Source: Deltaproteobacteria bacterium (GTDB taxonomy: Bacteria > Desulfobacterota > Desulfobacteria > Desulfobacterales > UBA11574). Taken from it: a stretch of DNA of 12,753 bases. The first letter of the stretch is position 1, and every line of letters starts with the position of its first letter. Below the pieces are notes generated by a model. It was given only the letters and a program-made list of their open reading frames with translations. It had not been told where the DNA came from and did no database searches. The stretch covers positions 1-12,753 of the forward strand of contig JAFDCA010000230.1 in assembly GCA_019313025.1 (NCBI GenBank), given 5' to 3'. Positions 4,426-12,576 of this stretch are shown here, in pieces. The translations under genes were made by a program, and so were the position numbers.

Positions 4426-4455
4426 GATGTCTCTCTATAGTTTATTTAACCTTCT

Positions 4456-4737
4456 TCTCCAAATTTGGTAGGAAAAAAGGATTCGAGGATTCAAGGGGCC
4501 AAGTAATTGAAAACGTTTTGACTCAGCTTTCTGCTCGTAGAGCTTACAGCTCAGACAGATGCTGTTAACATCGTCGTTTTTTCTGCCTTTATTCCTCGAT
4601 CTTTTTAAAAATATGTTCTTATAAGAAAGTGACTCCAAAGATCAAGGGATTATCTTTATTTATATTTTCTTTTTTCACTCGACCCCTTGAATCCTTAGAC
4701 CCTTGGCCTCTTATCAACCGACCAACTTTTTTGGAGA
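4456..4737. repeat. MITE-like imperfect inverted-repeat element
   Basis: Two nested pairs of inverted arms bound about 280 bases. The inner arms are AGGATTCAAGGGGCCAAGT at 4486-4504 and its inverted copy at 4677-4695, matching 17 of 19. The outer arms are TCTCCAAATTTGGTAGG at 4456-4472 and, inverted, 4718-4737 (TCTCCAAAAAAGTTGGTCGG on the other strand), with a small indel. The left side also has GGATTCGAGG directly followed by GGATTCAAGG. The interior has a small perfect hairpin (GAGCT-TAC-AGCTC, near 4539-4551) and no recognised gene. Such non-coding, inverted-repeat-flanked intergenic insertions are typical of miniature mobile elements; mobility is inferred, since only one copy is in the window and no target-site duplication was identified with confidence. 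Confidence 0.5.
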
Positions 4738-4744
4738 TGATTTT

Positions 4745-4774
4745 AAAATATTACTCCGATTAACCGAAAGTCAA
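4745..4774 (-). promoter_or_regulatory. Possible sigma-70-type promoter for rseP-purL-purQ
   Basis: Reading the minus strand, TTGACT (4774-4769, five of six to the -35 consensus) is followed after 18 bases by TATTTT (4750-4745, four of six to the -10 consensus). It lies after dxr and just before the repeat element, about 320 bases ahead of the rseP start. The -35 box sits inside a small dyad AGTCA-N4-TGACT (4769-4782) that could be an operator. AT-rich DNA gives such matches by chance, so this is tentative. Confidence 0.3.
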
Positions 4775-4835
4775 GGATGACTGTATCCGAATTTTGTTTG
4801 CGTTCAATGGCTTAAACTGTCTGTGCAATATTCAC

Positions 4836-6905: not shown

Positions 6906-7655
6906 TCAAGGTTCGACTTTGCCGAATCTTCTTTCACGCTGCTGGTAGTTTTTAAGAATTCGTATAAACTCATCTTTCCCAAAATCCGGCCACAAGGTGT
7001 CTGTAATACAAATTTCCGTGTAGGCGAGCTGCCATAACATAAAATTGCTGATTCGCATCTCTCCGCTGGTTCGGATTAAAAGATCCGGATCCGGCATTTT
7101 ACCGGTATAAAGATGTTTGGAAACGAAATCTGGTGTTATTGAATCAGGATCGATACGACCCTCTATGGCCTTTTTTGCAATCTCCTTAACAGCCTTAACA
7201 ATTTCATCCCGCCCCCCATAGCTCAGTGCCAAATTAAGGATTAATCCTGTATTTTCCTTTGTTAACATCTTGCTCTTTTCCAGTTCATGCCGAACATCTT
7301 CCGGTAATCGCTCCGTCTGTCCAAGGGTATTCAGCCGGATATTGTTGTCCAGCAACTCTTTTTGCTCGGATTTTAGGAATTTTTTAAGGAGGGCCATCAG
7401 GGCAGAGATTTCGGTTTGAGGCCGTTGCCAGTTTTCAGTGGAGAAAGCATACAATGTTAAAATGTGAATTCCAATTTCACGACAGGCACGAACAATGGTT
7501 CGAACAGCTTCAGAACCTTTTTCGTGACCTTTGATTCGACTTAAAAGACGCTTTTTGGCCCACCGGCCATTGCCATCCATAATAATAGCAACATGCAAGG
7601 GTAGGTTCAGGGGGTCAAGATCTGTATGAATAGAGGAAGATGTATTAGAATTCAA
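6906..7655 (-). CDS. uppS: Isoprenyl transferase UppS (undecaprenyl diphosphate synthase family)
   Basis: This cis-prenyltransferase extends farnesyl diphosphate with isopentenyl diphosphates to the lipid carrier used for peptidoglycan and O-antigen synthesis. It is cytosolic and membrane-associated. Using the TTG at 7655 the protein is 249 residues, the usual length. MDGNGRWAK lies at 26-34 (Asp27 binds metal and diphosphate), FSTENW at 71-76, SYGGRDEI at 145-152, and PDLLIRTSGE at 190-199 followed by the conserved Trp208, Glu214 and LWPDF block. I prefer this TTG because AAGGAG (7665-7660) is four bases upstream and the longer ATG start at 7709 adds 18 non-conserved residues and has no Shine-Dalgarno. 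The gene would then overlap frr by 11 bases. If the ATG at 7709 is used, the overlap is 65 bases and the protein has 267 residues. Confidence 0.93.
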   Translation of the reverse strand: MNSNTSSSIHTDLDPLNLPLHVAIIMDGNGRWAKKRLLSRIKGHEKGSEAVRTIVRACREIGIHILTLYAFSTENWQRPQTEISALMALLKKFLKSEQKELLDNNIRLNTLGQTERLPEDVRHELEKSKMLTKENTGLILNLALSYGGRDEIVKAVKEIAKKAIEGRIDPDSITPDFVSKHLYTGKMPDPDLLIRTSGEMRISNFMLWQLAYTEICITDTLWPDFGKDEFIRILKNYQQRERRFGKVEP

Positions 7656-8202
7656 GGATCTCCTTCTCTTTGTCTTTACAGACGTCATCAATAAGCTGGA
7701 TGTGCTCATCAGTTATTTTCTGAACCCGGTCCTGGGCTTTGAAAGCATCATCTTCAGAAATTTCGCCATCTTTTTTCAAGCTTTTCAACAGATCATTGGC
7801 ATCACGTCTGATATTTCGTATAGAGATCTTATGTTCTTCACTCTTTTTATATATAACCTTGACAAGCTGTTTTCTTCTCTCTTCTGTCAGTGGCGGGATG
7901 GAGATCCGTATCACTTTGCCGTCACTGGAAGGCGTTAAACCAAGGTCGGATTTCAATATCGCCTTTTCCACATCTTTTATAACAGATACGTCCCAGGGTT
8001 GGATAGTAATCAGGCGGCTTTCGGGAATGGAAAGTGATGCCATCTGATTCAAAGGCGTTTTGGTGCCATAGTAATCAACCCGGATGTCATCAAGAATTGA
8101 AAGGGAAGCACGTCCTGTTCTTACTTTATTAAATTCATTTTTGAGTGCGTCTATGGACTTTTGCATACTCTCTTTGGTTTCCTGATACATGGATTCAATC
8201 AT
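7645..8202 (-). CDS. frr: Ribosome recycling factor
   Basis: RRF works with EF-G in the cytosol to split the post-termination ribosome from mRNA. The 185-residue length is standard. Family features are the N-terminal helix leading to VRTGRAS (27-33), DYYG (43-46), the beta domain with TPLNQMASLSIPE (49-61) and IQPWD (67-71), IPPLTEERRK (102-111), and RNIRRDAN (129-136) in the long three-helix bundle. The ATG at 8202 is preceded by AGGA with 7 bases of spacing, 11 bases after the pyrH stop. Its 3' end carries the Shine-Dalgarno for uppS. Confidence 0.97.
   Translation of the reverse strand: MIESMYQETKESMQKSIDALKNEFNKVRTGRASLSILDDIRVDYYGTKTPLNQMASLSIPESRLITIQPWDVSVIKDVEKAILKSDLGLTPSSDGKVIRISIPPLTEERRKQLVKVIYKKSEEHKISIRNIRRDANDLLKSLKKDGEISEDDAFKAQDRVQKITDEHIQLIDDVCKDKEKEILEF
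7660..7665 (-). promoter_or_regulatory. Shine-Dalgarno deciding the uppS TTG start
   Basis: AAGGAG lies in the last codons of frr, four bases ahead of TTG at 7655. It is the only good ribosome binding site near the uppS start and favours TTG over the ATGs at 7709 and 7688. Confidence 0.6.
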
Positions 8203-9535: not shown

Positions 9536-10456
9536 TTATTCTCCTGATTTTTCTGTTTCTGCATCCTCTTGAAGTGTTTCGTCTTCAGAATTTTCTGTGA
9601 ATTCAACATCTTTTTGAGCTGAAGGGGTTGTCTTTTTTATGATCTCTACAACGGGACCGTCTGTGCCGTCTGAAATCACCTTCCTTTCCCCCGGTTTTAA
9701 TTCGGCGCTGACCGCTGCAACCGCTGATACGTCTTCCACCTCTTTATCGGCTTCAGCTTGCTGCCGTTCTTCCAGACGTTCTTTCCCCTCGATACAGGCG
9801 TCGGCAATTCTGGAGGTAATCAGCCGAATGGCTCGAATGGCGTCATCATTACCTGGTATGATATAATCGATCTCATCCGGGTTACAATTTGTGTCTACAA
9901 TGGCGATAATCGGTATTCCCAGGCGTCTTCCTTCACGTACGGCAATGGCTTCATTCCTGGGATCAACAACAAAAATGGCACCCGGAAGTCCATTCATGGT
10001 TCGAATTCCGCCAAGATTATTATCGAGTTTTAAACGTTCCTTTTTTAATTTCAACCGTTCCTTTTTGGGAAAAAGGTTGATCGATTCATCGTTCACAATA
10101 GTATTGAGATAGTTAAGACGGTCGATACTTTTTCTGATGGTCTGAAAATTCGTCAGCATTCCCCCCAGCCACCGGTTGTGAACGTAAAACATTTCGCATC
10201 GATTCGCTTCTTCATAGATCGAATCACGTGCCTGTTTTTTAGTACCTACAAAAAGTAGCTGTTTCCCGTTTGAAACTGTATCGACAACAAAATCATAGAC
10301 TTTTTTGAACATTCGAACGGTTTTCTGAAGATCAATAATATAGATGCCGTTCCTGGCCCCGAAAATATAAGGTTTCATTTTGGGGTTCCAGCGCCTTGTT
10401 TGATGACCAAAATGTACTCCCGCCTCCAAAAGCTCTTTCATCGTAATGTAAGACAT
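9536..10456 (-). CDS. rpsB: 30S ribosomal protein S2, with C-terminal extension
   Basis: S2 binds the 30S head-body junction and helps recruit S1. The S2 core covers residues 1 to about 228: [20 protein letters not shown] (6-25), FVGTKKQA (69-76), the WLGGMLTN block (96-103), NNLGGIRTM (146-154), DPRNE (165-169) and [10 protein letters not shown] (201-210). The tail from about 229 to 306 is rich in Glu, Ala and Lys, acidic at the end, and probably disordered; E. coli S2 has 241 residues. Such charged S2 tails vary between lineages. The ATG at 10456 follows AGGAAG at suitable spacing. It heads the rpsB-tsf-pyrH-frr run and has a structured 157-base leader. Confidence 0.97.
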
Positions 10457-10613
10457 TTTTATCTTCCTTTCTTAATGGTTTTTCTTCCCCCGCCCCTATC
10501 AACCCTGTTTCCGACCCCGTTAAATGGGGCACCGGGAAGCAGGTCCAAGAGCGTGCGAATTGATTAAACTGATATGTTTAACAAATAAAAAATTGATTCG
10601 CAACAGATTTTTA
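10457..10613 (-). promoter_or_regulatory. prmC-rpsB intergenic leader, likely promoter region of the rpsB operon
   Basis: These 157 bases separate the end of the prmC reading frame from rpsB. The distal half (about 10554-10613) is very AT-rich, as expected for a promoter. A loose candidate is TTGCGA at 10603-10598 followed 17 bases on by TAAACA, but it matches the consensus poorly. A dyad TGCGAAT/ATTCGCA (10554-10560 and 10596-10602) brackets this AT-rich block. The proximal half carries the GC-rich hairpin listed separately, then a purine-rich stretch leading to the rpsB Shine-Dalgarno. Confidence 0.4.
10504..10543 (-). ncRNA. Nested hairpin in rpsB mRNA leader (candidate S2 leader element)
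   Basis: On the transcribed strand the stem reads CCTG / TTCC / GCCCC, a seven-base loop ATTTAAC, then GGGGT / GGAA / CAGG. The three helices (4, 4 and 5 pairs) stack around a single-base mismatch and a small asymmetric internal loop. The top helix closes with a G-U pair that exists only in the RNA of this strand; on the other strand it would be an A-C mismatch. No T run follows, so it is not an ordinary terminator. S2 leader structures are known to control rpsB in some bacteria; whether this is related is unknown. Confidence 0.45.
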
Positions 10614-10739
10614 TTATTTTTTACACATTTGGACAACACGATCAAACCCACTGTAATCTTTTGTATATAAGACATTTTCATATTTTGAACATTGATCGAT
10701 AATTTCTTGGACGTCATTTCTTTGATTATGTCCGATTTA
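10614..10739 (-). pseudogene. prmC: Detached 3' end of prmC behind an in-frame TAA
   Basis: After the TAA at 10739-10737 the same frame stays open for 40 codons to TAA TAA (10616 and beyond). It reads IGHNQRNDV, then QEIIDQCSKYENVLYTKDY, then SGFDRVVQMCKK. That is a normal PrmC C-terminus, where the family has LLLEIG-x-x-Q followed by a GRDRVV-like end. The TAA replaces exactly the Glu codon of LLLEIG, so one base change (GAA to TAA) explains it. No frameshift is needed. Without this tail the last beta strands of the methyltransferase fold are missing. Confidence 0.85.
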
Positions 10740-11522
10740 CAGTAAAAGGTGTCCTTTTTGTTGCAGATAGAGATGGGCATTGTTAATAATATGTCTTAAA
10801 CAAGAAAGTCCGTCTTCGCTTCCATCTATTGCTGAAATCGGTTCATATTTGATAATCTCAGGCTGAAGTTTTTCAATAACCCGGCGTGGAACATAGGGTG
10901 GATTTGAAATAATCATATCAAATAAAGACCTTTTGTCTTTAAAAGGCTCAAGCCAATCTGCACAAACAAAAGACACCTTACTTTCAAAGCCATGAACCGT
11001 TGCATTTTGCTTGGCCAGTTTGACAGCGGTTGTTATTCGATCAGATGCAAAAAAAAGGTGGCAGGGCCTCATGGATACAAGGGCTAAAACCACCGCTCCT
11101 GAGCCTGTACCAAGCTCGAGTATGCGCTTTGGGGTTAATATCTGATGAGAAGCTGACTCTTGCGGCAAAAGATTTAGGGCAGTCTCAACCAAAAATTCCG
11201 TTTCGGGTCGTGGAATCAGAACGTCTTTTGTCACCATAAAATCCATAGACCAAAATTCCTTGCTTCCCACGATATATGCAACCGGTTCTCTTTTAATCCG
11301 TCTCTTTATTAAATCCTTGAATCGAGACAGCTCTCTTGCAGAAAGCGGCTGATCATATTGCAAATATAGATCTATTCTTTGTAATTGCATTGCATGGGCG
11401 AGAAGAATTTCAGCTTCAATTCTTGCAGCGTCTATATCATGGGATTCGAAATAAGATGTAGTCCACCCAAGGAGTTTTATTATCGTCCACTCAGAATCAG
11501 TGGACGTAGGCTGGTTCTGCAT
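10737..11522 (-). CDS. prmC: Release factor glutamine methyltransferase PrmC, truncated by an in-frame stop
   Basis: PrmC (HemK) uses S-adenosylmethionine to methylate the glutamine of the GGQ motif in RF1 and RF2. The open part has 261 residues. The N-terminal helical domain (about 1-85) leads into [12 protein letters not shown] (80-91) and LIPRPETE (102-109). The SAM-binding motif is ILELGTGSG (134-142), the catalytic motif SNPPYV is at 206-211, and the AIDGSEDGL block is at 231-239. Translation then stops after GHLLL, where the family continues EIG plus about 40 residues; those follow in frame behind the TAA. Full length would be about 302, normal for PrmC. The ATG at 11522 overlaps the end of prfA, its substrate gene, by 26 bases. 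The truncated product would lack the final strands of the Rossmann-like fold and is probably inactive unless the stop is read through or is an error. Confidence 0.9.
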
Positions 11523-12576
11523 TTTGTAATGCCTGGGCTTGATAATAAGTGATAATCGCTTCTATAATTTCATCGATTTCCCCCTGCAAAATATTTTCCA
11601 GTTTATAAAGGGTAAGCCCGATTCTGTGATCGGTAACTCTTCCCTGCGGGAAATTATACGTTCTTATCCTTCCGCTTCTGTCTCCATCTCCAATTTGGCT
11701 CTTTCGCTCTTGAGACCTTTTTTCATCCTGCTCTCTTGTCACACGATCAAGAATGCGGGCACGAAGAACTTTCATTCCCTTGTTTTTATTTTTCAGCTGC
11801 GATTTTTCATCCTGACATGTCACAACAATACCTGTCGGAAGATGGGTAATACGTACGGCTGAATCGGTTGTGTTCACGCTCTGGCCGCCTGGGCCGGTAG
11901 ATCGAAACACATCAACTCTGATTTCGCTGGGATCGATATGAATTTCCACTTCTTCGGCCTCGGGTAAAACTGCAACGGTAACTGCAGAAGTGTGTATCCG
12001 TCCCTGTGTTTCGGTTTCCGGAACACGCTGTACACGATGTATGCCGCTTTCATATTTTAAGCAGCTGTATGCCCCTTTGCCATGAATCATGGCAATGATC
12101 TCCTTTAAACCACCAATGCCGGTTGGGTGATGGCTCAAAACTTCGACTTCCCAGTTCTTGAATTCTGCATATCTACTATACATTCTAAACAGATCGCTGA
12201 CAAACAGCCCGGCTTCTTCACCGCCGGTACCGGCCCGTATTTCAATGATAACATTCTTGTCATCATTGGAATCTTTGGGTAAAAGTAGTTTTTTGAGATC
12301 ATATTCGAGGTTGTCTTTTTTAAGCGTCAGGGCTTCGACTTCATCCCGGGCCATCTCTTTTATATCCGGGTCTTTGTCCTTTAATAATTCCATGCTTTCA
12401 TCAAGTTCTATTAAAGTCTTTTTGTACTTTCTAAAGACTGTTACAATTTTATTAAGTTCAGCATGCTCCCGGCTATATTTTTGATATGCCTCCCGATTCT
12501 GGATGATACCAGAATCGCTTAAAAGCTTTTCAACCTCCGAAAAGCGATCTTCAACACCTGTTAATCTGTCAATCAT
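11497..12576 (-). CDS. prfA: Peptide chain release factor 1
   Basis: RF1 recognises UAA and UAG in the ribosomal A site and triggers peptide release. The 359-residue protein is full length. It has an N-terminal coiled-coil domain (about 1-100), the RAGTGGEEA motif (114-122), and the stop-codon reading tripeptide in PxT form as PET at 186-188 within [18 protein letters not shown]. The catalytic GGQ is at 230-232 in [17 protein letters not shown]. The PxT rather than SPF tripeptide separates it from RF2. The ATG at 12576 has AGG four bases upstream, which is rather close. Its 3' end overlaps prmC, whose product would methylate Gln232. Confidence 0.97.

Follow-up and report, generated by a model that had tools for sequence, protein, structure and literature searches.

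An in-frame TAA at a conserved glutamate codon of prmC in a desulfobacterial contig: sequence error or recent nonsense change

The closest described counterpart of the gene considered here is PrmC/HemK, the release factor N5-glutamine methyltransferase (TIGR03534; E. coli 2b3t and 1t43). We analyzed a prmC gene carrying an in-frame TAA on a 12,753-nucleotide contig from a Deltaproteobacteria bacterium that has uncultured sulfate reducers as relatives (JAFDCA010000230.1; the whole stretch is hereafter the window). This gene shares with PrmC/HemK the sequence family, the prfA–prmC gene order, the NPPY motif in the body of the protein and, as judged on an intact close relative (P0001), the fold, but in the window copy the stop takes away the C-terminal 41 residues, a part retained by all 120 listed homologues. 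Assembled genomes contain isolated nonsense changes or sequence errors, and the window prmC resembles these in that a single codon is concerned, a close relative is intact and no other broken gene lies nearby, with no difference in any feature tested. In prfB, an in-frame stop is kept together with a frameshift site in many species; the window prmC resembles this system in that a termination-pathway gene contains a stop, whereas the prmC stop is found in no relative seen and leaves the reading frame unchanged. A literature search by title yielded nothing on stops in hemK/prmC, and one combined query yielded nothing on premature stops and errors in genome assemblies.

The interrupted prmC frame

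The body of prmC comprises 261 codons on the minus strand (10740–11522) and ends at a TAA in the position of codon 262 (10737–10739), behind which the same frame continues for 40 sense codons (10617–10736) up to a tandem TAA TAA (10614–10616, then 10611–10613), the place where the closest relatives also end prmC. The original prediction had described this arrangement, and its coordinates are correct. It had further placed the stop on a conserved glutamate, one base away from a glutamate codon, and both points are correct: the stopped column is Glu in 120/120 listed homologues, in all 37 rows of a second alignment (A2) and in the three nearest loci (L001–L003), which belong to assembled genomes of Desulfobacteraceae/Desulfobacterales with a PrmC identity of 85–87%. 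The position as such is nevertheless not special, because 50 of the 134 single-base routes to a stop in prmC hit a column without variation in A2, where 96 of the 302 columns show none.

In spite of its shortening, the 261-residue form remains above the TIGR03534 cut-off (237 bits versus 199.1; 274.6 bits for the intact P0001), although it covers the profile only to position 217 of 253. It contains ELGTGSG at residues 136–142 and NPPY at residues 207–210, which we take to be the S-adenosylmethionine (SAM)-binding and the catalytic motif, respectively. In the window prmC, no single reading frame encodes the whole C-terminal portion of the methyltransferase fold: 41 residues are lost with the stop, among them, in a predicted model of P0001, the fold's last helix and two strands, and several columns of the tail are invariant in A2. 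The model was built with 37 sequences, has a mean predicted local distance difference test (pLDDT) score of only 65.9 and is poor over about the first 110 residues and residues 210–232, and we used it for the C-terminal part only. Since the last helix and two strands would be missing, a real stop should, judging from this model, inactivate PrmC.

Distribution and age of the stop

Homologues were aligned to the 261-residue form, 120 being listed of 7835 over threshold. None of these ends at the stopped column, and all keep at least 41 residues past residue 261. The closest of them, P0001, which is encoded on a 4434-base Joint Genome Institute (JGI) contig, is intact and matches the window in 257/261 residues before the stop and in 40/40 after it (P0001 residues 263–302).

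At the genome level, 60 relatives of the L001 genome were examined. Of these, 57 have a PrmC match (1e-67 or better) that reaches at least residue 297 and contains no internal stop, the remaining three being one genome with a 35-residue fragment only (G014) and two without a match (G022 and G043). A wider sample of the order, scored with at most 10 candidates per genome, gave a PrmC match at 1e-30 in 230/242 genomes; the 12 genomes without a match may be explained by incomplete assemblies, or by real loss in some. No internal stop was present in any of the 150 match rows seen from this sample (149 genomes, of about 234 rows), nor in 25 PrmC rows from 17 genomes chosen because they scored low or had two copies (15 of these genomes being additional to the 149), the check covering in each case the matched span; another eight rows from these 17 genomes matched other methyltransferases weakly. 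Each of four partial prmC copies that we fetched is cut by a contig end. Two PrmC matches were found in four genomes of the order sample (G200, G223, G241 and G244), the pair in G223 representing two pieces of one frame, and no second PrmC above the TIGR00536 cut-off was found in the sister genomes G001–G003, which have one such match each, their other hits being weak methyltransferase matches that do not exceed 47.7 bits. Among the sequences examined, the one-base stop is thus private to this one.

The ratio of nonsynonymous to synonymous substitution rates (dN/dS), calculated by the Nei–Gojobori (NG86) method for the window in comparison with L001 and L003, amounts to 0.163 and 0.188 for the body and 0.207 and 0.202 for the tail, and both parts lie within the range of nine neighbouring genes (0.058–0.253). 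Relaxed selection on the tail was considered and rejected, its dN/dS against L001 and L003 not being usefully different from that of the body, in a test of little power. Between L001 and L003 themselves, the values are 0.34 for the body and 0.78 for the 40-codon tail, a low-power comparison resting on few changes. As far as substitution ratios tell, nearly all prmC divergence arose under ordinary constraint, and such constraint on both sides of a private stop means that the stop is either very young or unreal. The original prediction had also pointed to a tail free of decay. This is correct, the tail being identical to that of P0001, yet it is weak evidence: at the rate of difference before the stop (4/261), about 0.6 differences are expected in 40 residues, and with less than one expected, the identity observed is uninformative.

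Weighing the explanations

Taken together, these results make the prmC stop an ordinary thing, whether an error or a fresh strain-level mutation. We give about an even chance to a base-calling or assembly error, in which a one-base difference private to this sequence would put a stop into an otherwise normal prmC, the organism presumably making an ordinary 302-residue PrmC that would methylate the GGQ glutamine of release factors 1 and 2 (RF1 and RF2). We lean to this explanation because no relative seen has such a stop and a 98% identical copy is intact, and we infer from this that the stop is artefactual rather than a true allele, in a window that appears to be a metagenome-type consensus. 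A real and very recent nonsense allele, to which we assign somewhat less than an even chance, is consistent with all data gathered for the error; the two explanations are almost equal in fit, which itself weighs against the first. Several other observations pull in the same direction. Nothing else has the clear look of an error: the body of prmC matches all 71 columns that do not vary among the 302-residue homologues (72 of the 120 listed), and the ten other genes of the window are all open, purL having been compared with relatives only up to 286 residues. The protein database was clustered at 90%, so that a truncated second copy could hide in the four-member cluster of P0001, and 66 of the 230 PrmC-bearing genomes lie outside the rows seen in the order scans, 19 of which are covered among the 57 related genomes. 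If the allele is real, a 261-residue PrmC without its last helix and two strands would neither fold nor work, RF1 and RF2 would stay unmethylated and termination would be slower, the allele being either tolerable to a slow-growing strain or about to disappear. Against this, the intact P0001 indicates that close relatives keep prmC, and no internal stop occurs in any related copy seen, which implies that loss of prmC by nonsense is rare in the group. It is improbable that the 261 residues alone make an active enzyme and that the tail is dispensable: the retained NPPY and SAM-binding region and a score above the family cut-off speak for it, whereas the presence of at least 41 residues after residue 261 in all listed homologues, the invariant tail columns and the predicted placement of the last helix and strands in the tail speak against it.

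The original prediction had left three options for the stop; a very recent change and an error both stand, while tolerance through readthrough finds no support, as no related copy seen has the stop. Programmed readthrough, in which poor release-factor methylation would let ribosomes pass the TAA and so yield full PrmC, has the open frame behind the stop and its body-like constraint in its favour. PMC8131318 gives a lower kcat on UAA for unmethylated RF2 (6.0 versus 10.4 per second), and in prfB, as mentioned in PMC8073009, a release factor regulates itself through frameshifting, which sets a precedent. The stop is, however, conserved in none of the 120 listed homologues and in none of the 57 PrmC matches from the 60 related genomes, and UAA is read by both release factors. 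Moreover, kcat/KM on UAA is nearly equal for unmethylated and methylated RF2 (20.0 versus 21.2; PMC8131318), and a UAA variant of B. subtilis rsbV showed no response to knockdown of RF2 or RF1/PrmC (PMC8073009). UAA is therefore probably a poor sensor of release-factor methylation, and we regard programmed readthrough as very unlikely. Equally slim is the chance of its strain-specific form, in which the stop would be real, full PrmC would arise only via readthrough, and the prmC message would serve as a termination-quality feedback sensing release-factor methylation. Reassignment or suppression of TAA throughout the genome is the least probable explanation by far, with nothing found in its favour. 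TAA ends five window genes (rseP, dxr, frr, pyrH and rpsB) where their relatives end: L001, L003 and L006 stop at the same residue, except that dxr of L006 ends one residue earlier (rseP compared in L003 and L006), and L006 partly uses other terminators, TGA in frr and TAG in pyrH, rpsB and dxr. These five ends exclude a changed genetic code for this window and strengthen the same conclusion of the original prediction; within the window, no suppressor tRNA was found.

Should the stop be real, this bacterium would be a natural PrmC null among relatives that retain prmC, and would offer a small example of the degree to which organisms of this kind can do without release-factor methylation. The weight that the original prediction gave to a true null is somewhat overstated, inasmuch as PMC8131318 describes the prmC knock-out as non-lethal with slow growth. 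Should the stop instead be an error, the case cautions that a PrmC shortened in this way still scores above the family cut-off and would receive a functional annotation.

Neighbouring genes

All genes identified in the window (prfA, prmC, rpsB, tsf, pyrH, frr, uppS, cdsA, dxr, rseP and purL) lie on the minus strand; the names other than prmC and prfA were assigned by reading the translations. The release factor 1 gene prfA (11497–12576, minus strand, 359 residues) is open, has its GGQ at residues 230–232 and overlaps the start of prmC, which it also directly precedes in L001–L011. Its nearest listed homologue, from a query without the first codon, is 96% identical, compared with 98% for PrmC. 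It has two private residues, S22 and I341, in columns where the 116 listed homologues of equal length (of 120) do not vary; these residues may be sequence errors or true divergence. Downstream of prmC, the next gene is rpsB (9536–10456, minus strand), which is likewise open.

When read from its first ATG, the uppS frame shares 65 bases with the end of frr (7645–7709), and the true uppS start may lie later. Between dxr and rseP, the gap (4426–4835) measures 410 bases, as compared with 146 in L001, 217 in L003 and 329 in L006. It contains an inverted repeat with 28-base arms (4477–4504 and 4677–4704) that are 79% complementary and separated by 172 bases, possibly a small non-coding mobile element.
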